A DNA stretch of 34,143 nucleotides from Hyphomicrobiales bacterium (GTDB lineage: Bacteria; Pseudomonadota; Alphaproteobacteria; Rhizobiales; Beijerinckiaceae). The stretch spans positions 1 to 34,143 of the forward strand of contig CANGIS010000030.1 in assembly GCA_947454055.1 (NCBI GenBank), in the 5' to 3' direction. Shown in pieces: positions 6,965 through 34,143 of the stretch (its first letter is position 1; every line of letters begins with the position of its first letter). Made by a program: the position numbers and the translations under genes. The notes beneath the pieces were generated by a model. It saw only the letters and a list, made by a program, of their open reading frames with translations, was not told where the DNA came from and searched no databases.

Positions 6965-9900
6965 TCAGAACTTGCTTTGGAAACCAGCCAGGACCGTGAA
7001 GGCCATGTCGGAACCATAGTCCATCTGCGAACCAGCGACGTCGAGCGTGACGGTCTGGTTTGGCTTCACGGCGACGCTCACACCGGCCGAGCCGTTGAGG
7101 CGGACAGACCGCGGCGTCGTCGTGCTGATGTAGCTTGCGCCGTCCGGCAGGTTGTCGCCGACGAGGTTGACAAGCCGGAAGGTGTCGAGGTTGTAGGAAT
7201 AATCATATTCCAAACCAGCACCCAGACGGTAGTTGACGGTTTCCGAAACCGCACTGTTCAAGCGCACACCCGCCGTTCCTGTCAGACGGTTCTGGGCATA
7301 GGCCGAGTAGCCGAATGGATCCTCAACCACACCTGGGTTGTAGGATTCGATATAGGATCCACGGCTGGCCTGCGTGTAGCGAATGCCGACATAAGGCGTC
7401 ATTACATTCTTGCTACCCGAAGCAATACCCCAGCCCAGTTCCTGCGCGAAGCCTACGCTGTTGACATCGCTCTTGCCGGTAACGGTGTAAGCCGTACCCA
7501 GCAGATTGGCGCGGGTAAGATCGACGTTCTCGGTGCCGTAAGCAACCGACGCGCGACCCTTCAGGCCCGTGCCGTCCTTGTTGCTGCCGTAATCGATGAA
7601 CGCACCCAGGGATGACATGCCACCATTGCTCTTGATGAACGAGCCATCCTTGGACGAACCATTGATGTCGACGAAGCCACCGAGACGAATGCCCGAACCG
7701 ATATCTTTGGCAACCGTCAACACGCCTGCACCCTCATCTTTTCCGTTGAAGCTCGAATAACGAGCGCGGAAGGAGACGCAAGCACCGCCATTGTCAAACA
7801 GGCTGCAATCATAGTCGAGGCTTTGACGGATCGCCATTTCGCGGCTTTCGAGCATCAAACGTTGTGGCTCTGCCATGTCCTGACCGAAGTTCAGGACACG
7901 AAGATCCCAGTTCGAGGTACCTTCAGAAACAGCAGGAGCCACCGTATCACCGCGCCAAACGGCATCCGTCAACGACCACAACAGACCGTTCGCACCAACA
8001 TAAATGCTCTCGGGGTTCGTGATTTGTGCGGTGCTTACTGCCTGGATGACGTCCTCATAGATATGGGTCGCCGTCGCGGAGGTTAGTCCCTCGACGTCTA
8101 CCGTCGTGGTGCCGGTTGAGCCGTAAATGTAGGCATCAAGCTGGCCGTAATGCGTCTGCGTGTCGACCGAGATCGTATAAGCGGTCGGCAAGACACCGGA
8201 GAACGTCAGAGCCGTATGCGATGCACCGACGCCGTCGCCACCCTGGCTGTTCGTCAGAGCCGACAGCGTGCCATTGTTGACGACGATACCGGCCGGAGTG
8301 CTGCCCGTGCCGCCCGAGCCGCCCGTGATGGCGCCGTAGTTAACAATCGAGCCGACCACCGCGCTCGTATCGATCAGGATGCCGTTGCCGCCAACAGCAC
8401 CGGTGCCGCCTGCTGCACCGCCCTGGATGACACCGGTCGAATAGTTGGTGATCACCGAGCTGCCGGTTGAGCCGGTCGCCAAGATCTGGATCGCCGCTGC
8501 ACCATTGCCGTACGTAGTACCGGCAAGGCCGGTTGTGCCCGTGGTGCCCGTGGTGCCAGCCGAACCGCCGATACCGCCGTCGCCGCCTAAGCCACCACTG
8601 CCGCCAACGCCGCCCGTGCCGGAACCCGCAACGCCAACGCCACCTGTGGAACCTGAGGTGCCTGACGTGCCGGTTGCGCCGGTGCCACCCGAGGCACCTA
8701 TGCCACCACTGCCGCCGATACCGCCCGAGCCACCCAAGCCGCCAATGTCGCCGGTACCGCCGCTGCCGCCGACACCGCCGACACCGCCGAGACCGCCCAC
8801 GCCGCCATTGCCGCCATTGCCTGCTGCTCCAGCAGCACCACCGTTGCCAGCCGCGCCGACGCCACCGCCAGCACCACCGGTAATCGTGCCACTGTTGGCG
8901 ATTGTGAGGCCCGCGCCCTGGATAGCAACGGCGCCGTTACCGCCATTACCACCATTGCCGCCAATGCCACCATTGCCGCCATTGCCGCCATTGCCGCCAT
9001 CGCCGCCATAGCCGCCCGCGCCGCCCATGGCGCCTGTCGAACCCGTATTACCGGTGACACCAGCGGCACCATCGCCACCATTGCCGCCTGCAGCGCCATT
9101 GCCGCCAGCGCCAGCAGCGGCGCCATTGCCGCCTGCGCCACCCGTGCCGCCGTTGCCGCCGGTGATGCTTGCGCCCACATTGTTGGTAATGCTGAGATCG
9201 GTGCCAGAAATAGCAATGCCGCCATCGCTGCCGTTCGCGCCATTGCCGCCTGCGCCGCCATTGCCGCCATTGCCACCTGCAAGGCCATCGGTGCCATCGG
9301 CGGCATCGCCGGAGCTAACGCCGTAAACGCCATCGGCACCATCATTTGCATTGGCAGGGGTGTAGCCAGCTGCACCAACGCCGCCATTGCCACCCGCGCC
9401 GCCAAGACCATTGCCGCCGGCGATGGTGCCATTGTTGACGATGGAGCCCGTAGAACCAGTAATTGCAACACCACCGGTCGAGCCGATGCCGCCTGTACCG
9501 CCTGCACCGCCATTGCCGCCGGTAGGGACACCAATTGTACCAGCAAAACCGCTGCCGCCGTTACCACCTGTACCACCGGACGAGCCAACACTGCCGGCCG
9601 TACCATTCGGAGCACCAGCATTCACACCATCCGCACCCGTGGCACCCGCAGTACCGGTATCTGTCGAGCCGGTGACGTTAACAGCCGCGTCGACCGTAAC
9701 AGTTGCCGGCCCAACGATGTTTGCGGCCGATCCAGTGCTTCCCGTGGTGCTGACTGAAATCGAGCAATCAGCCGAAATCGTTACGCTCACGTCACAATCG
9801 GTAGCATAGGCCTGACCCGATACAAGCGCCATCGAGGCAACCAGAGCCGCGACGGAGACGGAGCTGCGGATCATCCGCGATGCGCCGAAGGAGAGCGCAC

Positions 9901-9976
9901 GATCGGCGCTCAAAGCCAGGCCGTCGTTCGACGACGAGCCGGCATTTAACACATGGAGACTGTGATTTTTTAACAC
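6965..9976 (-). CDS. Autotransporter with Gly-Gly-X (PGRS-like) passenger domain
   Basis: A 1003-residue type V secreted protein. It starts at a GTG (9976) with agggtgg seven bases upstream. Residues 1-34 are a long N-terminal extension before a hydrophobic core ending Gln-Ala-Tyr-Ala (about 58), as in extended autotransporter signal peptides. Residues about 80-570 are dominated by Gly-Gly-Asn/Ala/Ser/Thr repeats, interrupted by short rungs such as Ile-Val-Asn-Asn-Gly-Thr-Ile-Ala-Gly-Gly that recur five or six times. About 570-720 is a transition, and about 720-1003 is a beta-barrel translocator (autotransporter domain) ending Phe-Gln-Ser-Lys-Phe. The surface role, such as adhesion or matrix, is inferred. 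It is monocistronic, with its own terminator. Confidence 0.9.
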   Translation of the reverse strand: MLKNHSLHVLNAGSSSNDGLALSADRALSFGASRMIRSSVSVAALVASMALVSGQAYATDCDVSVTISADCSISVSTTGSTGSAANIVGPATVTVDAAVNVTGSTDTGTAGATGADGVNAGAPNGTAGSVGSSGGTGGNGGSGFAGTIGVPTGGNGGAGGTGGIGSTGGVAITGSTGSIVNNGTIAGGNGLGGAGGNGGVGAAGYTPANANDGADGVYGVSSGDAADGTDGLAGGNGGNGGAGGNGANGSDGGIAISGTDLSITNNVGASITGGNGGTGGAGGNGAAAGAGGNGAAGGNGGDGAAGVTGNTGSTGAMGGAGGYGGDGGNGGNGGNGGIGGNGGNGGNGAVAIQGAGLTIANSGTITGGAGGGVGAAGNGGAAGAAGNGGNGGVGGLGGVGGVGGSGGTGDIGGLGGSGGIGGSGGIGASGGTGATGTSGTSGSTGGVGVAGSGTGGVGGSGGLGGDGGIGGSAGTTGTTGTTGLAGTTYGNGAAAIQILATGSTGSSVITNYSTGVIQGGAAGGTGAVGGNGILIDTSAVVGSIVNYGAITGGSGGTGSTPAGIVVNNGTLSALTNSQGGDGVGASHTALTFSGVLPTAYTISVDTQTHYGQLDAYIYGSTGTTTVDVEGLTSATATHIYEDVIQAVSTAQITNPESIYVGANGLLWSLTDAVWRGDTVAPAVSEGTSNWDLRVLNFGQDMAEPQRLMLESREMAIRQSLDYDCSLFDNGGACVSFRARYSSFNGKDEGAGVLTVAKDIGSGIRLGGFVDINGSSKDGSFIKSNGGMSSLGAFIDYGSNKDGTGLKGRASVAYGTENVDLTRANLLGTAYTVTGKSDVNSVGFAQELGWGIASGSKNVMTPYVGIRYTQASRGSYIESYNPGVVEDPFGYSAYAQNRLTGTAGVRLNSAVSETVNYRLGAGLEYDYSYNLDTFRLVNLVGDNLPDGASYISTTTPRSVRLNGSAGVSVAVKPNQTVTLDVAGSQMDYGSDMAFTVLAGFQSKF
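8540..9620. repeat. Degenerate short tandem repeats coding for Gly-Gly-X
   Basis: On the plus strand this block is built from 6- and 9-base units such as ccgccattg and ccgccg, densest at about 8940-9010 and 9065-9260. It lies wholly inside the autotransporter passenger. Codon variation between units shows that selection acts at protein level, but near-perfect stretches could change length by slippage or recombination. Confidence 0.8.
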
Positions 9977-23809: not shown

Positions 23810-24008
23810 GGAAAAAGCCTAAAAATGGAGTACGGCAAGCTTGGCCTTGCCGTGCCCTTCGGATCTTTTTTGGCCCGTTAATCAGCGCTGGATGATCCGA
23901 CCGGTTAATATTCAGTGACTGGCCACGAAACGATCATTGCTTATGCCCTTATGAAGGACTAAGGGTCTGCCCCGCTACCCAGACGGTATGTACGTGGAGC
24001 CCTTCGGT

Positions 24009-25898
24009 ATGGTTAAGTTCCATTCGACTTATGATCAGATTAAAGTTAGTGCCTCGACCCGAACAGCGATGATTGCCGCTTTGGGTGTTGTGTATGGCGA
24101 CATTGGCACCTCGCCGCTCTACGCCTTCAAACAATCCGTTATGGCCGCAGGCGGCGTGAGCGAATTCAACGTCTATGCTATTTGTTCGCTGATTTTCTGG
24201 TCACTCCTGATGGTCGTGACGATCAAATATGTGACCGTCATTATGCGCGCCGACAATAAGGGGGAGGGCGGCACCTTTGCCCTGACGGCCTTGGCTCTGG
24301 ATTACGTCAAATCTCCGCTGGTTCGCACCTTGGTGCTGGGCGCGGGCCTGTTCGGTGCCGCGCTTTTTTATGGCGACAGCGTCATCACGCCGGCGATTTC
24401 AGTTTTAAGCGCGATCGAGGGGCTCGATATCGCGACCAAAGCCTTGCACGGCTTCAGCGTGCCGGTCACCCTCGTGTTGATTGCAGGCCTGTTTATGATC
24501 GAACGCTATGGCACAGCCGTCGTCGGTCGTGTGTTCGGACCCATTATGGTGGTCTGGTTCGGCACCATTGCGATTACCGGCATCGCGTCGATCATCCATC
24601 ATCCGATGATCTTTTTTGCGCTCGATCCGCGCTATGGACTTGGTTTTCTGATCCACCATCCGGGTTTGGCCGCGGGCGTTCTGGGTGCCGTTGTTCTGGC
24701 GGTTACCGGTGGCGAGGCATTGTTTGCCGATATGGGTCATTTTGGACGCGATCCGATCAATAAAACCTGGTTATGGTTTGTCTTTCCGTCCCTGGTGCTC
24801 AATTATTTCGGTCAGGGCGCCCTGGTGCTCAGCGATCCGAGCACGATTGCCAATCCCTTCTATTTGCTCTCGCCGGCATGGACGCTGTTTCCGATGGTGC
24901 TGCTTTCCGCAGCCGCGACCATTATTGCCTCGCAGGCTGTGATTTCCGGTGCCTTCTCGATTACCAATCAAGCGGTTCAGCTCGGCTATATTCCACGCAT
25001 TCGGGTGCGCCACACCTCGGCCGAGGAAGTCGGCCAAATTTATGTCAGTCAGGTCAATGTCATTTTGTTCCTGATCGTTGAAGCTCTTGTGGTGGTGTTT
25101 CAGACCTCCGACAATCTCGGTGCGGCCTATGGCATCGCGGTAACGGGTACCATGGCGGTTGTGACCATGCTGGCGGGTATTGTGATGGTCAAAAAGAACA
25201 ATTGGCCACTTTATTACGTCCTTCCGCTCTTCGGCGTCTTTCTCGTGATCGATCTGGTGTTTTTCGGTACTAATCTGCTCAAATTTTTCGAAGGTGGCTG
25301 GTTCCCGCTCTGCCTTGCGGCCTTCCTGTTCTTTGTGATGGCCGTCTGGATCAACGGACGCAGCCGGCTTTTGAAAGCGCGGTGGCGGGATGCCATTTCG
25401 CTCGATATTTTCCTTAAAAACATCCTGAAGCGTCCGCCGATCCGCGTGCCGGGGACGTCGATCTTCATGGTCGCGCATACCGATGTCGTGCCCAATGCCT
25501 TGCTGCACAATCTGAAGCACAACCGCATTCTGCACGAGCGGGTCTTGCTGATGAAGGTCGAGTTCGTTTCGCAGCCAACGGTGCCGGATAAAGAGCGGAT
25601 CGAGATTACCCATCTCGACGGCAATTTCCATGTGGTTAAGCTGCGCTACGGCTTTTTCGAGGAGCCGAAAATTCTGAGGGTTTTGGCCCAATTGCGGATT
25701 CAGGAATTCCGCTTCAAATTGGCGGAAGTCTCGTTCTTTGTCGGCAGCGAGACATTGACCTCAAAAAAGCACAATCTGTGGGACTCGTTAACCACCAAAC
25801 TGTTCATCGCGCTTCATCGCAATATGATGACGGCCACCGATTATTTCCGGATTCCGCCGGGCCATGTGGTCGAGCTGGGCGGTCATCTCGAAATGTAG
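24009..25898 (+). CDS. kup: Kup-family low-affinity potassium uptake transporter
   Basis: 629 residues from the ATG at 24009, which has ggag nine bases upstream; an in-frame ATG at 23988 would add seven residues. E. coli Kup is of similar length. The N-terminal [15 protein letters not shown] (26-40) is the family fingerprint. About 12 membrane helices extend to residue 450, followed by a C-terminal cytosolic domain. The protein imports K+ by proton symport at the inner membrane. It is intact and convergent with a second kup, with only 7 bases between the two stop codons. Confidence 0.95.
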   Translation: MVKFHSTYDQIKVSASTRTAMIAALGVVYGDIGTSPLYAFKQSVMAAGGVSEFNVYAICSLIFWSLLMVVTIKYVTVIMRADNKGEGGTFALTALALDYVKSPLVRTLVLGAGLFGAALFYGDSVITPAISVLSAIEGLDIATKALHGFSVPVTLVLIAGLFMIERYGTAVVGRVFGPIMVVWFGTIAITGIASIIHHPMIFFALDPRYGLGFLIHHPGLAAGVLGAVVLAVTGGEALFADMGHFGRDPINKTWLWFVFPSLVLNYFGQGALVLSDPSTIANPFYLLSPAWTLFPMVLLSAAATIIASQAVISGAFSITNQAVQLGYIPRIRVRHTSAEEVGQIYVSQVNVILFLIVEALVVVFQTSDNLGAAYGIAVTGTMAVVTMLAGIVMVKKNNWPLYYVLPLFGVFLVIDLVFFGTNLLKFFEGGWFPLCLAAFLFFVMAVWINGRSRLLKARWRDAISLDIFLKNILKRPPIRVPGTSIFMVAHTDVVPNALLHNLKHNRILHERVLLMKVEFVSQPTVPDKERIEITHLDGNFHVVKLRYGFFEEPKILRVLAQLRIQEFRFKLAEVSFFVGSETLTSKKHNLWDSLTTKLFIALHRNMMTATDYFRIPPGHVVELGGHLEM

Positions 25899-25905
25899 GC
25901 GGTCT

Positions 25906-27805
25906 CTAGATACCGATTTGCGTGCCGACTTCGACCGCACGATCGGACGGGATGTGGAAATAGGCGGACGCGTCATGCGCCCGCCGCGCCAGCCAGATGA
26001 ACAATCCATCTTGCCAACCCGGCATATCCGAATGCGCCGCGCGCTTCAGCATACGACGAGACAGGAAAAACGACGTCTGCATCACGTCAAATTTCAGGCC
26101 AAGTCTTCTCAAAGCAGGTATCGCTTTTGGAATATTAGGCTCGTCCATGAAGCCGAACCTCAAACGCACAATATAAAAACTGTCCGAGAGCTGCTTGACG
26201 TTGGCACGCTCTTCAGAAGGGACATAGGGAATATCGGCCGTTTCAATCGACATGATGACGTTTTGCTCGTGCAAAACCTTGTTGTGTTTGAGATTATGCA
26301 ACAGCGAACTCGGCACCGTATCGGCATGGCCGGTGAGAAAGACGGCCGTACCCGATGCGCGGTTGGGCGGATGCTTTTCGATGATCTCGACGAAATGGCC
26401 GAGGCCGACCTCGTCGCGATGGGTGCGCTCCGACAGGAGCGCCGAGCCGCGCCGCCATGTCAGCATCACAACCATCAGGCCGAAGCCGACCAGGAGCGGT
26501 AGCCATCCGCCCTCGAGGATTTTCATTAGATTGGCACCCAGAAAAACGAGATCCACCAGCAGAAAGGGGGCGATCAGCACGCAGGCCAGTCCTGCCGGCA
26601 TTCGCCATAATTTCCATGCGACAATAAAGGCCAAAACGGCGCTGATCACCATGGTTCCCGTCACGGCGATGCCATAGGCGGCGGCAAGACTGGTTGACGA
26701 GCGGAACACTTGCACCAGCAGCAGCACGCCAATGAGCAGCAGCCAGTTGATGCCGGGGATGTAGATCTGGCCGCGCTCCAGCTCCGAGGTGGCGCGAATA
26801 TCAAAGCGGGGCAAGAGACCAAGCTGAATGGCCTGCTGGGTCAAGGAATAGGCCCCCGTAATCACGGCCTGACTGGCGATGATGGTTGCAACCGTTGCTA
26901 TAAGCACCATAGGCGCTAAGGCCCATGCCGGATAAAGCAAAAAAAAACGGATTTTGGATGGCTTCCCGCGTCGTGACGACGAGGGCGCCCTGTCCCAGAT
27001 AATTCAGGGCAAGGCATGGAAAGGCAATAAAGAGCCACGCGACGCGGATCGGGCTGCGGCCGAAATGGCCAAGATCGGCATATAGCGCTTCGGCACCCGT
27101 CACCGCCAGAAAAACCGAACCAAGGGTCAAGACACTCATCATGCCGTGCTGAAGGAGAAAGCGGATACCGAAAAGCGGGTTCACAGCCCAAAGAATGTCG
27201 GGATGGGCGATGATTTGCGCCAGCCCGCCTATGCCGAGCAGCATAAACCAGACCGTCATCGCGGGACCAAAAAAGGCACCGACGACCGCGGTGCCGCGCG
27301 ATTGCATCAGAAACAGGCCGATCAAAATGACAAGGCTAATGATCACAACATAAGGATCGAAAGCGGGGGTCACGAGCTTTAAGCCTTCCACCGCGGAAAG
27401 GACCGAAATGGCAGGCGTGATGACGGCGTCCCCATAAAATAGCGCGGCTCCGATAATGCCCAATAGCGGCACAAGGGCTATCTTGCGACCCAGCGTCTTC
27501 TGCGCCAGAGCCATCAGGCTCAAGGTTCCGCCTTCACCTTTATTGTCGGCGCGCAGCATGATGACGACATATTTCAAGGTAACGATGATGGTGAGGGCCC
27601 ACAGAATGAGCGAGATGACCCCGTAAATCGTACTGTCATTGAGGTCGCCTCCCTCGCTGGCGGCCTTGAGGGATTCTTTGAAAGCATAGAGTGGGCTTGT
27701 GCCAATATCGCCGTACACGACGCCCAGTGACCCGATCATCAAGGTCGCGAAGCCCGATTTTCGGCCGTCCGAAGAGCCCGATCTGCCGCGGTGTCCGGTC
27801 GCCAT
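25906..27805 (-). pseudogene. kup: Second kup paralogue, interrupted by a one-base frameshift
   Basis: The N-terminal part (from 27805, with the Kup fingerprint near residues 28-42) is in frame to about 26940. The C-terminal part continues in another frame from about 26940 to 25906. At the junction the minus strand has nine T. With eight, the reading becomes [11 protein letters not shown], which matches the first kup and joins both parts into about 632 residues. As written, translation leaves the Kup frame after about 288 residues and then continues for about 46 residues. No other damage is seen, so sequencing error, recent mutation or expression by slippage are all open. The restored protein would be a K+/H+ symporter. 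Confidence 0.85.
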
Positions 27806-28582: not shown

Positions 28583-29626
28583 ATGCGTAGCGGTGTGATG
28601 CTTTTTTTAGAACGAATTTTTACTGACGTAACCTTTGTTGGATATCAAAGGTTTCAGAAATTTATCGCCGTTTTTATCTTTTTGTCTTGCATTGGTATCG
28701 CGGCTGAGACGCTCACAGATTTTGCGGCAGGCTATGGCGATTATCTGAGATTTTTTGAAAAAATTACGCTGGCTGTCTTTGTCATCGAATATATCGGCAA
28801 CCTCTATTTTGCGCCAAGCCGCACCAAATTCATTTTCAGTTTCTGGGGACTGGTCGATTTGATGTCGATCCTTCCCTCCTTGACGCTTATGCTTAACGTA
28901 TCGGCGTTGCGGGGGACCAAAGTTCTGCGCGTGATGCGGGTCTTGCGGGTTCTGCGGGTTCTCAAACTCGCACGCCAAGCGCTGGAAATGCTGGCGGGAA
29001 GCAATGGCAAGAAGCGTAACCCGCTGCTCGTCAATTTGAACATCTATCTCATCACGCTCTTCGCCGTTGTGATGATTTCGAGCAGCGCGATGTATTATGC
29101 GGAAGGGTCTCAATATGCGCCCTCGACGATTTCGGACGGTCAGGCAGCTCTTGATGCGGTCGCCGCGGCCAATGGTGGCGAGGCAGAAACCTATGTGCCG
29201 CATGACCCGTTGACGGGAGCTCCTATTCCCGATGACAAACACTTTTTTGACTCCATCCCAACCTCGATGTGGTGGTGTCTGGTGACGCTGACGACGACCG
29301 GCTATGGCGATCTGTATCCGGTCACGCTTCTGGGTCGGATCATCGCCGTCTTTACGATGTTTGCAGGCTTGATCTTGTTCTCGATTTTGATGAACCTCGT
29401 TGGCCGGACCATCATGATCTTGCTGTTCGGCGAGGCGGTGGATGAAACCCAGAAGGCCGATACTCCTGGCGATTCATTGTCGGTGCAGGCTCAAATTCAT
29501 CCGCTCTCGACGGCCCTTGTGCTGATGGAACGGCAGAATCTCGTGACAGCCGATCAGGCTGCCCGCATTGTCATTTTGCCGCCTGGCGAAATCAGGGCCG
29601 CGATGGAACAGCTTGCCGGCAAATAA
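28583..29626 (+). CDS. Voltage-gated-type potassium channel, six transmembrane helices
   Basis: 347 residues. Helices S1-S3 at about 25-100; S4 at 113-131 has seven basic residues at every third position (Lys113, Arg116, Arg119, Arg122, Arg125, Lys128, Arg131), a full voltage-sensor pattern. S5 is at about 153-170, the selectivity filter Thr-Thr-Thr-Gly-Tyr-Gly-Asp at 237-243, and S6 at about 250-280. The pore linker between S5 and the filter is unusually long, about 45 residues with Gly, Ala and acidic residues. The cytosolic tail (about 283-347) has no recognisable cyclic-nucleotide or RCK domain. It conducts K+ across the inner membrane, tetrameric by family. ATG at 28583 is chosen for ggtggga upstream; TTG at 28547 is less likely. 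Confidence 0.92.
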   Translation: MRSGVMLFLERIFTDVTFVGYQRFQKFIAVFIFLSCIGIAAETLTDFAAGYGDYLRFFEKITLAVFVIEYIGNLYFAPSRTKFIFSFWGLVDLMSILPSLTLMLNVSALRGTKVLRVMRVLRVLRVLKLARQALEMLAGSNGKKRNPLLVNLNIYLITLFAVVMISSSAMYYAEGSQYAPSTISDGQAALDAVAAANGGEAETYVPHDPLTGAPIPDDKHFFDSIPTSMWWCLVTLTTTGYGDLYPVTLLGRIIAVFTMFAGLILFSILMNLVGRTIMILLFGEAVDETQKADTPGDSLSVQAQIHPLSTALVLMERQNLVTADQAARIVILPPGEIRAAMEQLAGK

Positions 29627-29658
29627 GTAGGGCCGCCGGTTTACACCGGCCGTCCAGA

Positions 29659-30027
29659 CTAATGGCAGGGCCAGACACTATGCAGGGCAGCGGTGGCGCG
29701 GATGTCGAAGCGCTCGCGCAGGCGGTTCACATCGCGTTCGAGAAATTCCACCACCGCTTGGGCAATGCGGTGGGGTGGGATGTTTTCCGGCACACAAGAA
29801 TTCAGAAAAACCGGCTGAAGCGGCCCGTTTTTGACGATGGATTCCAAGGCATCTCGGCAAATTAACGCTTGGGTCCATTCGCTATCCTGAACCGGCGGCG
29901 GATTAAGCGCCTGAAAGCGGCAGCCGGGCAGCATGTATTCGACGTTGCGACGGTCATCGGCCAAGGCATTGCTCGATAGCAGGATAAAGCCTGCGATGCC
30001 CAAAGTGATGATTTTAATGCCTGTCAT
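29659..30027 (-). CDS. Exported small protein, Rap1a/Tai-like
   Basis: 122 residues with a signal peptide to about residue 23 (Ser-Asn-Ala-Leu-Ala). Four cysteines (C36, C57, C78, C121) are probably two disulfides. The second half, Cys-Val-Pro-x-Asn-Ile-Pro followed by Val-Val-Glu-Phe-Leu-Glu, then Ala-Thr-Ala-Ala-Leu-His-Ser-Val-Trp-Pro-Cys, matches the Rap1a/Tai domain, which includes periplasmic immunity proteins against type VI amidase effectors. No effector or type VI gene is seen here, so an immunity role is not supported, and many family members are of unknown function. The gene reads into the channel gene's 3' end and is divergent from the AT-rich block. Confidence 0.75.
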   Translation of the reverse strand: MTGIKIITLGIAGFILLSSNALADDRRNVEYMLPGCRFQALNPPPVQDSEWTQALICRDALESIVKNGPLQPVFLNSCVPENIPPHRIAQAVVEFLERDVNRLRERFDIRATAALHSVWPCH

Positions 30028-30420
30028 CTTTTATGCTTTTACCTCGGGTGCCCAATTGCAGTGAATGATAGGCAGGTTCGCCGCGAGTTCAAAGGAAATT
30101 CATGCCGTTATTTTGTGTTGGTAGTTTTTTCTGAAGATCGTCATGGCATTTTCCTTGTCTTGATTTGTTTTATTATTTTTAATTATTATAATTATTAAAT
30201 ATATAAATTTACGTAAGTGTCAATTTAAGTATATATTATTAAGTAATTGATCTCCGATGATTAGAATAAAAATATATATTATTAAATATCCAAGCTAATC
30301 AATAAATAAAAACGATTGGCTTTATTCAAGTGACTGTTTGTCAAACTTCATTGACGGCGTCGTTCTGTCTCCCGGGTGACCGGCGAAGATCGTCACCGTC
30401 CCAACCTACGGAGAGTTTCG
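30028..30420. other. Non-coding region with an intensely AT-rich core (about 30165-30320)
   Basis: Between the Rap1a-like gene and the first Ala/Gly-rich gene lie about 390 bases without a gene. The core consists almost only of A and T, in sharp contrast to the GC-rich window. It has two copies of a 13-base motif. It is a plausible promoter, a nucleoid-protein binding site, or scar of gene transfer. The part at 30320-30420 returns to normal composition and holds the leader of the gene at 30421. Confidence 0.7.
30230..30285. repeat. Two direct copies of a 13-base AT motif
   Basis: tatatattattaa occurs at 30230-30242 and again at 30273-30285, 43 bases apart start to start (about four helical turns). 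In such AT-rich DNA chance repetition is possible. Confidence 0.5.
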
Positions 30421-31038
30421 ATGTATCGTATTCTTGCATCCCGCTCGCATATTGTCGCTGCCGGAGCCGTGGCAACCTTGGCCATTGGCCTGCTTGGAGC
30501 AACCCAGGCGTCTGCGGACGCCCTTAACATCAGCACGTCTTATGGTGGCGGGCATAATGGCAGCACCACAAAGGCTTGGACCAAAGGGGATGGCTCCAGT
30601 TCCGGTGCAACGGCAGGTAGCGTGGGGGCAGGTCTCGGCTACTCGCAGACCGGCTATGCGGCGGGTATTTCGGGTGGTGGCGGCATGGCTGGCGTCTCGG
30701 CAGGTAGTGCCACCGACGGCAAGGCCGGCGCCAAGGCATCGGCTGGCGGCGGCGGCTCGGCTGGTGGCTCTAACATGACGTCCACCACAGCTAATGTTGC
30801 GGATACGGCTGCCGGTGGCGGCACGGATTCCTCGGTTAAGACCAAGGGCAATGCCTCCGGTACCGCTGGCGGGGCAGGCCTCGGTGTCGCCGGTGCGTCT
30901 TCGGGCGGCTATGGCACGATGACGTTTGCAGGCGGCGGTGGATTGTCGGGTTCGACCGCAAGCTCCGCCAATGGCGGCCGTGCGTCGTCGTCGAGCAACT
31001 CCAATGGTGGCGGCAACGCGACGGCTGGCGGTCTCTGA
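30421..31038 (+). CDS. Exported Gly/Ala/Ser-rich protein of unknown function (first of three)
   Basis: 205 residues. The start at 30421 has ggaga six to seven bases upstream, and the signal peptide (hydrophobic core about 10-27) ends Ala-Ser-Ala near residue 30. The mature chain is about half Gly, Ala and Ser, with Gly-Gly-Gly clusters, repeated Thr-x-Gly-Ala-Gly segments, scattered Lys and no Cys. Low complexity suggests an extended or beta-rich secreted, matrix or surface protein rather than an enzyme. No barrel, autotransporter or anchoring domain is seen. It is the first gene after the AT-rich block and is followed by a 10-bp perfect inverted repeat. I do not recognise the family. Confidence 0.75.
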   Translation: MYRILASRSHIVAAGAVATLAIGLLGATQASADALNISTSYGGGHNGSTTKAWTKGDGSSSGATAGSVGAGLGYSQTGYAAGISGGGGMAGVSAGSATDGKAGAKASAGGGGSAGGSNMTSTTANVADTAAGGGTDSSVKTKGNASGTAGGAGLGVAGASSGGYGTMTFAGGGGLSGSTASSANGGRASSSSNSNGGGNATAGGL

Positions 31039-31053
31039 CCTAAGCCAAAGGGG

Positions 31054-31086
31054 CCTCGTTTGCGCCGTTCGAGTCAGCAAACGAGG
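31054..31086 (+). terminator. Perfect 10-bp inverted repeat after the first Gly/Ala-rich gene
   Basis: cctcgtttgc pairs with gcaaacgagg around a 13-base loop. There is no T-run directly after it, so it may be a weak terminator or an mRNA-stabilising stem that lets the next gene be read at lower level. Confidence 0.55.
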
Positions 31087-31195
31087 TCCTCCCTCCTCGT
31101 CTTCATTTTCATCTTAACCCCCTGCGGTTGCAGAACTTCTTGGATGCGGATCCGATGGGTCGATGGCTCAGGGGCAAATACCGGGAGCGGAAGAC

Positions 31196-31792
31196 ATGAA
31201 TCCTGTTTCAAGGCCGAGCGCCTGCCATACCCCTGACGGGGCAAAAACGTCTCCTTCATGGTCTCAGCCGATGATCTCGCTGAGTACGATGGCTGCCGCT
31301 TTTCTGCTTTTTGGGGCCATTAGCGCGAACGCACAGCCTGCGTCCACCTCGCCTTCTTTTGCGGCGTCGATCGGCTACGGGTCGGGTATCGGTGTTTCCT
31401 CCACGGGAACGAGCGGTGCTATGGGAGCGGGTGCCGCCGGATCCTTCGCGGGAGCTGGTTCGGCGCAAGGCCAATCGCAAAGTGTGTCGGGCGCGTCTGG
31501 CGCCGGCCTTTCGGGGGCTGCCAGCCACAGCAATCCGACCAATGTTCAACTTGGTCGGTCCAATTCGTCCGGTAGCGGCTTCGGTCATACTCAAACCTTG
31601 ACCATGGGGAGCGGCCAGGCATCGGCGACAGCGGGGGGCAGTGCCGCCGCTCACACAAAAATAGATGCGGCGGCAAGCCAATCGTCCGGCAGCGGACTGG
31701 CTGCAACGACAACCACGGCTTCGACGCCGGACGCCAGCGCCTCCAGTGGCGCCTTGGGCGGCGGTTCTGGCACAGCAACAACAAGCCCATAA
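31196..31792 (+). CDS. Exported Ser/Gly/Ala-rich protein of unknown function (second of three)
   Basis: 198 residues. The start at 31196 has gggagcgga upstream; an ATG at 31163 in frame is a weaker option. A long, polar N-region (about 30 residues) precedes a hydrophobic core and Ala-Asn-Ala at about 44-47, an unusual but possible signal peptide. The mature chain is mainly Ser, Gly, Ala and Thr, with Gln-Ser repeats (Gln-Gly-Gln-Ser-Gln-Ser) and Ser-Ser-Gly-Ser-Gly, and lacks Cys in the mature part. No known domain is seen. It lies 157 bases after the first Gly/Ala-rich gene and 159 before the third, same strand, so the three probably work together. Confidence 0.7.
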   Translation: MNPVSRPSACHTPDGAKTSPSWSQPMISLSTMAAAFLLFGAISANAQPASTSPSFAASIGYGSGIGVSSTGTSGAMGAGAAGSFAGAGSAQGQSQSVSGASGAGLSGAASHSNPTNVQLGRSNSSGSGFGHTQTLTMGSGQASATAGGSAAAHTKIDAAASQSSGSGLAATTTTASTPDASASSGALGGGSGTATTSP

Positions 31793-31812
31793 ACCAAGGG
31801 TCAAAACGGTGA

Positions 31813-31839
31813 GGCGGAGGGGTCGATCTAGCCTCCGCC
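31813..31839 (+). terminator. GC-rich stem-loop after the second Ala/Gly-rich gene
   Basis: ggcggagg / cctccgcc (8-bp stem, loop of about 11) is followed by a pyrimidine-rich but not pure T stretch. It lies 20 bases after the stop. Confidence 0.5.
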
Positions 31840-31951
31840 AACCTTCTTTCCCTCTGCTACCGACGATGACGCCGACGCGCTTTGGGGTGCAGCGGCGACG
31901 GAGTTGGCACGTCAAGAATCCCCCGAAACCAAGTGTTTACGAGGTAGGCCC

Positions 31952-33769
31952 ATGCTTACAAGCTCCCCCCTTCGCGCGGTTCCGCAACCTTCCGTGATCG
32001 TTAAGTCCTTTGCGGCAATCGCCTTTCCCCTTCTCGTGTTTATCGTGACCGGTTGCCCGGCAACGGCAAAATCCACCACCCATTCTACGCTTGCCCATCA
32101 GGTCGCGGTTCAAGAATGTCACGTTCCAAGGGATGAGTGCGACCATTCGGCTGAGTGTGTCGCTCCCGACAGGCTGGTGCGTTGCCCAAGCTCTGCCGGT
32201 CATGGATCGGTGGCCACCAAAGGCGACGGGCCGATGATCGGTCCCGTTCCGCATCCTCCTACGCCCAAGCCGGTCTCGACCGAGCGGGTACTGAACCAGA
32301 CGATATCGGTCACCTTCAATACTTTTGTGTCCTTTCCGGATTTGGCCAAGCCGCTCAAACAATGGCAAGATGGCGGACACCAGCGGACCGGCACGGCGAG
32401 CGCGCTGGCCGCCAATACGGCTTATGGCATTGGCGTCGGCGTGGCGACGAATGGCGTTCAGACGGCGGTTTCGATCGGGGCAGGCGTGACAGGTGCAGCC
32501 GTTTGGTCGGGCCGTTCCGGATCAAGTACAGGCGCGGTCGGCCAAGGCATCGGCATCGCGATGGCCATCGATACACCCTCTTCCGCGCTTGTTTCGACCG
32601 GCGGCACCGTGGTCAGCCAGTTCATTTCGATATCGGTCAATACCAATCTGGCCATATTCGGTGTCGGCTCGGCGTATGGTGTCGGAACGTTGGCAGCACT
32701 TCCTGGAGGCGGCGTTAGAACATCTGATCGGGTGACGATCGTGTCGACCGTATCGCTTCCGGCCGCTGGCAAGACCGCGTCGGTTGGAAATGCTGCTGCT
32801 CTGGTGACTGCCGCCACCTTGTCGGGTTCAACCACGCTCGCAGCCCAAACGAGCCCGAGCGGGTCGGCCACAGCAGTCGCGCAATCGGTCAACGCCAGCA
32901 AGGCGGCAGCCCTCGTCGTTTCGTCCGTTGATCCGGCGTCGGCTCCCATCGGGCCCACGATCATCCATCAGACCCTGATTATAACCTCCAACACCGTGAT
33001 CGGCGCCCCGCCAAAAAACGCTCTTGTCGCCAGCGCAACGTTATCCCAGACGCCTGATCAGCACGCTTCCGTATCCGGGCTGGGCATCGGCAGCGGCGGT
33101 GGACACGCCAATGTGGATGCTGCCGCCAATGGCGCGGGTAACGGATCGGCGCAGGCAACCGGTCCCTTGGCGTCGGCAGCGGGTGCCGACGGACAGGGCG
33201 TATCGGCTGCAGCAACCAATCTGGTCGATAAAACGGCTCCTACCGATCCCGGAACCCACCTTCAGGCGGTCACAATTGCCATAAATGATAAGGTTTCGGT
33301 CGGAAAAGGCCTCGGGCCTCAAAAGGCGTCCGGCCCGGTGCAAGCCAACACGCAATTGGTCGGGTCGACCGGTGTTGCAAGTGCCAACGCGTTCGGAAAT
33401 GCGGCCATGACAACACCGACGATGTCGGCAAATGGCGCTGGTTTGGCGGGATCTGTAGCGGCCAGCCTATCGCCCTCGACGGCCGGAGCGGGGGGCGCCG
33501 CTGTGGCTGCGGGTCAGGCGACACTTCAGTCCGGATTGATCGGATCCCCTGTCACGTCCTCTACCACCGGCTTGAATGCCGCGCAAACCATGGCCCAAAT
33601 CAACACCACGGGTCCGGCAAAGGCGGCTTCGAATGCCGGAGCGGCGGGGCAGGCGGTTGCCGCAACCCAAACGGGCCCCACACTCGCGGGTTCAGGGCAA
33701 TCCGGTCTGAAGGCATTAGCAGGCACCACCGGCGGGGTGTCGTCGCAAGCTGGCGTCACGGTTCATTGA
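31952..33769 (+). CDS. Exported Ala/Gly/Ser/Thr-rich protein with repeated beta-strand modules (third of three)
   Basis: 605 residues; ATG at 31952 has gagg seven bases upstream. The N-terminal hydrophobic stretch (about 17-40) ends Val-Thr-Gly-Cys35, which fits a lipobox, or alternatively a signal peptide ending Ala-Thr-Ala. Four Cys lie at 56, 63, 69 and 78, then none. Five alternating-hydrophobic segments recur at 115-128, 222-237, 259-269, 339-351 and 437-451 (core such as Gln-Thr-Ile-Ser-Val-Thr-Phe-Asn-Thr), each followed by a long Ala/Gly/Ser-rich stretch. Residues 460-605 are purely low complexity. It looks like a surface or matrix polymer, perhaps lipid anchored. No known family was recognised. 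Confidence 0.75.
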   Translation: MLTSSPLRAVPQPSVIVKSFAAIAFPLLVFIVTGCPATAKSTTHSTLAHQVAVQECHVPRDECDHSAECVAPDRLVRCPSSAGHGSVATKGDGPMIGPVPHPPTPKPVSTERVLNQTISVTFNTFVSFPDLAKPLKQWQDGGHQRTGTASALAANTAYGIGVGVATNGVQTAVSIGAGVTGAAVWSGRSGSSTGAVGQGIGIAMAIDTPSSALVSTGGTVVSQFISISVNTNLAIFGVGSAYGVGTLAALPGGGVRTSDRVTIVSTVSLPAAGKTASVGNAAALVTAATLSGSTTLAAQTSPSGSATAVAQSVNASKAAALVVSSVDPASAPIGPTIIHQTLIITSNTVIGAPPKNALVASATLSQTPDQHASVSGLGIGSGGGHANVDAAANGAGNGSAQATGPLASAAGADGQGVSAAATNLVDKTAPTDPGTHLQAVTIAINDKVSVGKGLGPQKASGPVQANTQLVGSTGVASANAFGNAAMTTPTMSANGAGLAGSVAASLSPSTAGAGGAAVAAGQATLQSGLIGSPVTSSTTGLNAAQTMAQINTTGPAKAASNAGAAGQAVAATQTGPTLAGSGQSGLKALAGTTGGVSSQAGVTVH

Positions 33770-33820
33770 TGGCTTTGGGCCGCTTGGCATAAAGTATTCG
33801 GCTGTGTTACCGTTAGACAC

Positions 33821-33856
33821 AACGACGCCTGCTCTGCGGGCGTCGTTTGCGTTTGT
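33821..33856 (+). terminator. Intrinsic terminator after the third Ala/Gly-rich gene
   Basis: aacgacgcc pairs with ggcgtcgtt around a 9-base loop, followed by a T-rich tract (tttgcgtttgt). It ends the Ala/Gly-rich gene group, about 50 bases after the stop. Confidence 0.7.
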
Positions 33857-33906
33857 AGGGTTGTCCATGTCGCGCTTTGAAACGCGCCGCCAGAGTGAAT
33901 TGATTC

Positions 33907-34143
33907 ATGTTTCGATTGATGCCGTTGATGATTGGGCTGCTGGTCATGGGTTTGGTCGGTTCGACCGAATTGCGGGCCGATTCTGCTGATCCCTTGCCCA
34001 AGATTGATGATCTCATTCGATCCAATCAGTTCGGCGAGGCGGTCAAATTGACGCGGCAAGCTGCGGAAGCGGAGAATATCGAGAGCGAATTTCGGCTCGC
34101 AATCTTCTACTGGCATGGTGTGGGAGTAGCCCAAAACTATCTG
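33907..34143 (+). CDS. Exported Sel1-repeat-like protein, N-terminal part (runs off the end)
   Basis: The first 79 residues are visible and the frame is open to the window edge. A signal peptide covers about residues 1-24 (core Met-Ile-Gly-Leu-Leu-Val-Met-Gly-Leu-Val-Gly). Then comes a helical segment and Glu-Phe-Arg-Leu-Ala-Ile-Phe-Tyr-Trp-His-Gly-Val-Gly-Val-Ala-Gln-Asn-Tyr-Leu, which is the consensus second helix and turn of a Sel1 (TPR-like) repeat. Such periplasmic proteins mediate protein-protein contacts. The ATG at 33907 has only a weak agagtga site upstream; other in-frame starts exist. It follows a terminator, so it need not belong to the gene group before it. Confidence 0.75.
   Translation, partial: MFRLMPLMIGLLVMGLVGSTELRADSADPLPKIDDLIRSNQFGEAVKLTRQAAEAENIESEFRLAIFYWHGVGVAQNYL

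Follow-up and report, generated by a model that had tools for sequence, protein, structure and literature searches.

Curli subunits are Sec exported, glycine rich, and beta prone and are encoded in a small gene cluster. Proteins of the PE_PGRS type are secreted, low in complexity, and rich in glycine and alanine. Here we examined three consecutive genes, here named P1, P2, and P3, on a stretch of 34,143 nucleotides (the window) that is the entire contig C30 of a 2.67-Mb Hyphomicrobiales genome (G000). Like curli (CsgA/B, HfaA type), the locus is a small cluster of genes for exported-type, glycine-rich, beta-prone subunits; unlike curli, its products have no Pfam match, and the genomes of its genus lack CsgG. 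The likeness to PE_PGRS-like proteins is one of composition only, and P1 to P3 differ from them in matching no Pfam or NCBIfam family at an E value of ≤1 and in having a Sec-type N terminus as judged by eye. A third comparison is with the ALTTAQ-repeat proteins (PF20080) of relatives, which are also large and repetitive and are encoded in the neighboring flagellar cluster, but P1 to P3 do not match PF20080. We found P1-P2-P3 to be a co-inherited cassette in a fixed place beside a Sel1-mot operon. Judged from their sequences, the three genes are real, conserved, and restricted to the lineage of one genus.

The initial annotation of the window had looked to conserved co-occurrence for support of a system. 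Among 12 genomes of the genus (G000 to G011), P1 was present in six (G000, G001, G004, G007, G011, and, in shortened form, G009). All six also carried P2 and at least part of P3, and the visible P1-P2-P3 order was identical throughout; homologues that never occur together, the outcome named as contrary, were not found among the 12. By state, the cassette was a same-order set in five genomes (P3 cut by contig ends in two), decayed in one, a remnant in one, and absent from five. The P1 orthologues were 66 to 70% identical in four genomes, and G009 retained only the tail of P2. P3 was complete in G000, G001, and G004 only, was cut by the contig end in G011, and was broken in G009, and a profile of its core found five of the six P1-bearing genomes. 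In G007, the start of P3 lies on one contig and then gives way to other sequence, the tail stands before Sel1 on a second contig, and the core was not seen; this break is either an insertion or a chimeric contig end. The sequence joined to the G007 P3 start has a weak match to a virion protein (L016:1-612, minus strand; phrog_2824, E value of 0.027).

Selection was assessed from pairwise ratios of nonsynonymous to synonymous substitution (dN/dS) by the Nei-Gojobori method with Jukes-Cantor correction. For P1, dN/dS was 0.11 to 0.20 in all 10 pairs. Of the 10 P2 pairs, 7 had unsaturated dS, and these gave 0.12 to 0.20. Six P3 pairs gave 0.14 over 216 codons for G004-G011, 0.29 to 0.38 for three others, and saturation for two. 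Since many dS values were near saturation, these ratios are rough; read from them, purifying selection acts on P1 and P2. The complete P3 copies were 24 to 36% identical among themselves (24 to 32% for the window copy against the two others), with the core as the most conserved part.

As the initial annotation had supposed, no recognized family was found for any of the three proteins in Pfam or NCBIfam. A PHROG search of P1 to P3 gave no match at an E value of ≤0.1, and the P3 alignment gave none against PDB sequences at an E value of ≤1. We searched 248 sampled genomes of the family with one profile each for P1, P2, and the P3 core, obtained matches in 6, 7, and 6 genomes, respectively, and found no credible relative beyond the genus in these searches. 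Two matches outside the genus, one to the P2 profile in G012 (E value of 7e-4) and one to the P3 core in G175 (E value of 0.002), were rejected once the open reading frames (ORFs) of their regions were listed; we take these regions to hold a SulP-type transporter-like gene and a short-chain dehydrogenase/reductase-like gene. In the wider order (397 sampled genomes), the P3-core profile matched G000 and one further place, in G441 (E value of 5e-4), a 40-residue match with two internal stops that was likewise rejected. A pattern scan of genome_contigs with the P1 alignment returned 100 candidate stretches and five confirmed loci, which match the five P1-bearing relatives. These are metagenome assemblies labeled Alphaproteobacteria, Rhizobiales, or Hyphomicrobiales, and going only by their sample-like names, we infer that they are lake bacteria. 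There was no P1 match in phages, no P3 match in plasmids, and no P1-alignment match in viral contigs. Among the open-access papers listed for such proteins or for the Sel1-mot genes, there was no evident match, which does not by itself establish their absence from print.

Signal-like N termini were seen by eye, without a predictor, in P1, P2, P3, and their orthologues, and the remainder of the proteins is rich in Gly, Ala, Ser, and Thr. After residue 35, the P1 and P2 orthologues contain 16 to 32% Gly and 17 to 25% Ala, and P1 has no Cys. The lipoprotein site suggested for P3 did not hold up: the motif VTGC occurs in the window P3 only and is lacking in the four other P3 N termini (G001, G004, G007, and G011) inspected by eye. 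The P3 linker is Pro rich in G001 and Gly/Ser rich in G004 and G011, and the core includes the conserved segment YGIGVGVATNG. Repeated beta-strand-like modules had also been described. The first three recur in all three complete copies as Q-x-[IL]-x-[VIT], at residues 116, 223, and 340 of the window P3 and at corresponding positions of the G001 and G004 copies, while the fourth (residues 437 to 451) has no counterpart in the other two. Three matches to this pattern were reached by 2, 0, and 2 of 5,000 shuffles, the pattern having been fitted to these sites; with a looser pattern, the observed number was reached by 72, 8, and 1 of 3,000. Structure prediction had been proposed as a check on the modules. 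The AlphaFold model of P3 places strands at residues 112 to 127, 219 to 234, and 336 to 351, the same three motif sites, but its mean predicted local distance difference test (pLDDT) score is 38. A Foldseek search with it gave no match at an E value of ≤0.001 (the best, at 0.7, is meaningless at such model confidence). P1 was modeled as unstructured after its signal helix (pLDDT of 31).

The three proteins had been described as differing from one another. This is so for P1, which gave no signal against P2 or the P3 core in profile comparisons and shuffle tests, but P2 has a weak glycine-rich segment in common with the P3 core (profile-profile probability of 38%, P value of 3e-4). In a control of nine profile-versus-orthologue tests with 800 shuffles each, four beat all shuffles: the P3-core profile on the G000 P2 and the P2 profile on P3 of G000, G004, and G011. 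The P2-profile match in the G000 P3 falls at about residues 356 to 383, outside the core. In each of the remaining five tests, between 2 and 56 of the 800 shuffles scored at least as high. We regard homology of P2 and P3 as weak because the rejected false matches score like the P2-to-P3 cross matches in the same searches. An internal duplication in P1 is not claimed; in each of five orthologues, self-alignment beat 100 of 100 full shuffles, but windowed shuffling equaled it in 1 to 8 of 100 cases.

Absence of the cassette takes several forms. In G005, G006, G008, and G010, the Rap1a-like gene that flanks the cassette elsewhere is separated from Sel1 by a short gap that contains no cassette; in G006, the gap holds an ORF, presumably transposase-like, inserted between the two. 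G002 has no cassette and a different upstream context. G003 retains the P3 end (by eye, against G007) together with a Rap1a-like gene bearing three stops and has therefore lost the cassette. A tree of three neighboring proteins, with G002 (a long branch) as the root, placed G001, G003, G004, G007, and G011 in one clade (clade A, support of 98), sister to a group of G000, G009, G005, G006, G008, and G010 (support of 86). Its rows are incomplete: the G000 row consists of part of Sel1 plus the Rap1a-like protein, the G011 row consists of the Rap1a-like protein only, and G002 and G003 lack the Rap1a-like protein. On the simplest history, the ancestor would have had the cassette, which was then lost in G003 and in the clade of G005, G006, G008, and G010 and is decaying in G009. 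Transfer of the cassette between clades is a possible alternative.

What the cassette makes can be proposed from composition, conservation, and position. We tentatively favor, a little short of even confidence, co-inherited Sec-exported structural proteins that would make a surface or extracellular material, a coat or matrix, of this lineage. Such a surface structure is plausible. Speaking for it are the shared gene order, the low dN/dS of P1 and P2, the signal-like N termini and the composition of the remainder, the three strand sites of P3, and a position bordering a cluster that in relatives includes motA/motB, flagellin, FliD, and large ALTTAQ-repeat proteins. P1 and P2 would be small glycine-rich subunits, for the most part disordered or repetitive, P3 would serve as a large scaffold, its beta-strand core attached to a flexible Pro/Gly linker, and together they would form the cell-surface or extracellular coat or matrix. 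Export (from signal sequences judged by eye), joint assembly, surface location, and any tie to flagella are all steps that we infer. Several results weigh on the other side. CsgG (PF03783) was the one exporter family searched for; none of the 12 genus genomes has it, and the control search was positive in 4 of 14 known genomes. Seven of the 12 genomes have the cassette in decayed form, as a remnant, or not at all, and P3 diverges fast. With the looser pattern, the strands of the window P3 stand out less, the P1 and P3 models are of low confidence, and Foldseek found no match for P3 at an E value of ≤0.001. Because P3 diverges fast and 7 of the 12 genomes have no intact set, the cassette is dispensable; a surface or extracellular material that is dispensable and specific to the lineage is the description to which we would best commit. 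A narrower version, a three-component silk-like surface or flagellum-associated fiber of one Hyphomicrobiales genus, in which the P3 core would nucleate or anchor bulk subunits P1 and P2, is unlikely.

Other explanations were weighed against this coat or matrix. P1 to P3 might modify or coat the flagellum, or sense surfaces through it, so that the place beside the mot operon would be functional. Sel1 indeed follows the cassette in G000, G001, G004, and G009, where the contig continues, and also in G007, where a contig break intervenes, despite differing genes further upstream. However, motA also occurs in G003, G005, G006, and G010, none of which has an intact cassette, Flagellin_N matches above the cutoff were obtained in all 12 genomes (in G000, the best was only 57.5 bits, on a 184-amino-acid frame), an inverted repeat lies between P3 and Sel1, and the position alone is explicable by vertical inheritance. 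We consider this improbable. Improbable to the same degree is a set of orphan genes of little function that are drifting and disappearing, as the losses and the low identity of complete P3 copies would allow; against it stand the dN/dS values of P1, P2, and the closest P3 pair, all far below 1, and a gene order kept across two deep clades. Curli-like functional amyloids are less probable again. The small, Gly-rich, exported-type subunits and the Q-containing predicted beta strands of P3 fit such a reading, but with 0 Pfam families matched by P1 to P3, there is therefore no curlin repeat, and the CsgG count against its controls also speaks against it. Rap1a immunity proteins are known from type VI secretion (PMC3533786 and PMC3852654); an effector-immunity set, in which the divergently encoded Rap1a-like protein would guard against a toxin in the cassette, is highly improbable, for although the Rap1a-like gene adjoins P1 in five of six bearing genomes and PF18602 is named for such proteins, the gene is present in 12 of 12 genomes regardless of the cassette (P1 in 6 of 12), both scanned Rap1a-like proteins score below the family cutoff, and P1 to P3 match no Pfam family.

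Within one genus, the cassette offers a natural series (intact, decaying, remnant, and absent) of an exported-type protein set, which could serve to test the role of lineage-specific low-complexity surface proteins. If the proteins do assemble, they would represent a glycine-rich bacterial material of a new kind.

The layout of the locus is given in Table 1. The three ORFs of the initial annotation were recovered on the plus strand, and the spacing of about 160 bases attributed to them is borne out by stop-to-start gaps of 157 and 159 bases. The AT-rich block was also as described: the contig's 12 AT-richest 150-base windows all start within positions 30091 to 30201. G009 has a similarly AT-rich stretch, and the other four P1-bearing genomes have milder ones. 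Inverted repeats do stand behind all three genes, but calling them strong was generous because a terminator scan of positions 29600 to 34143 gave two sites against a shuffle mean of 5.0, i.e., fewer than in shuffles.

Table 1. Features of the cassette and its surroundings in the window
Feature	Positions	Strand	Remarks
Rap1a-like small protein, signal-like N terminus	29659..30027	-	Divergent from P1; PF18602 at 24.9 bits, below cutoff of 27.7
AT-rich block	30160..30330	.	Between divergent genes, upstream of P1; 16.4% GC versus 57%
P1, exported type, 205 amino acids	30421..31038	+	31% Gly after residue 35
Inverted repeat after P1	31051..31089	+	13-nucleotide arms, 92%
P2, exported type, Ala/Ser/Gly rich, 198 amino acids	31196..31792	+	Orthologues 43-51% identical, 4 genomes
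Inverted repeat after P2	31813..31839	+	8-nucleotide arms, 100%
P3, exported type, 605 amino acids	31952..33769	+	Signal, variable Pro/Gly linker, putative beta-strand core, low-complexity tail
P3 conserved core	32285..32656	+	First to second Q-x-I-x-V strand; alignment A4; profile matches in 5 genus genomes
Inverted repeat after P3	33821..33847	+	12-nucleotide arms, 92%
Start of Sel1-repeat gene, opens mot operon	33907..34143	+	Truncated by contig end

The Rap1a-like gene is a core gene of the genus that flanks the cassette and is probably not part of it; in G009, it lies on another contig. On the downstream side, the window Sel1 fragment scores 18.6 bits, below the Pfam cutoff of 30.7, and matches the G001 protein (E value of 5.5e-17), which is above the Sel1 cutoff. 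In G001, G004, and G009, Sel1 is followed by a gene of 160 to 165 amino acids and then motA, and the same series stands behind the P3 tail of G007; in G001 and G009, motB was seen to come after motA. Pfam was run on the Sel1, 164-amino-acid, and motA proteins of G001 and on MotB of G009, with other copies named by similarity, and the G011 contig ends in P3, hiding its downstream side. The Sel1-bearing contig in G001 and G010 also carries flagellin, FliD, and ALTTAQ-repeat proteins. The latter include L082:6486-13037 (G001, 2,184 amino acids, 74 repeat stretches) and L084:3709-5895 (21 repeat stretches). A second MotB-like protein is likewise encoded in G001, as is, near the mot genes, a crescentin-like rod protein (L082:14699-16183; PF19220, 164.8 bits).

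The ten-base motif ATAAAGTATT was seen by eye before Sel1 in G000, G005, G008, and G010, the last three of which are without a cassette; it is interrupted by the insertion in G006, and the 180-base stretches inspected in G001 and G004 lack it. Since the motif occurs in cassette-less genomes as well, the mot operon may have its own promoter in the group of the window. Before P1, the palindrome TTGACCTGAATCAA or TTGACCTCGATCAA, which we take to be FNR/FixK-like, stands at 55 to 56 bases in all four intact clade A copies (L014:5919-5932, minus strand; also L015, L016, and L018). The pattern occurs eight times in 129,827 bases, four of these being the clade A P1 sites; it is absent before P1 of G000 and G009 and was not used for the window. 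A repeat protein of about 700 amino acids precedes the locus in clade A (L014:6596-8725, minus strand, and L015:1456-3558), the G001 copy having no Pfam match, and a second, diverged version occurs in G007 and G003. It was rejected as a cassette member because it is absent from G000 and G009.

Elsewhere in the window, a 1,003-amino-acid ORF at 6965 to 9976 (minus strand) has no Pfam match at an E value of ≤1e-4. At 26801 to 27805 (minus strand), a Kup-type potassium transporter ORF matches 272 of 454 profile positions (the first part only) and overlaps a second ORF; the gene that together they span, at 25906 to 27805, may be split. A full-length Kup gene adjoins it at 23988 to 25898.

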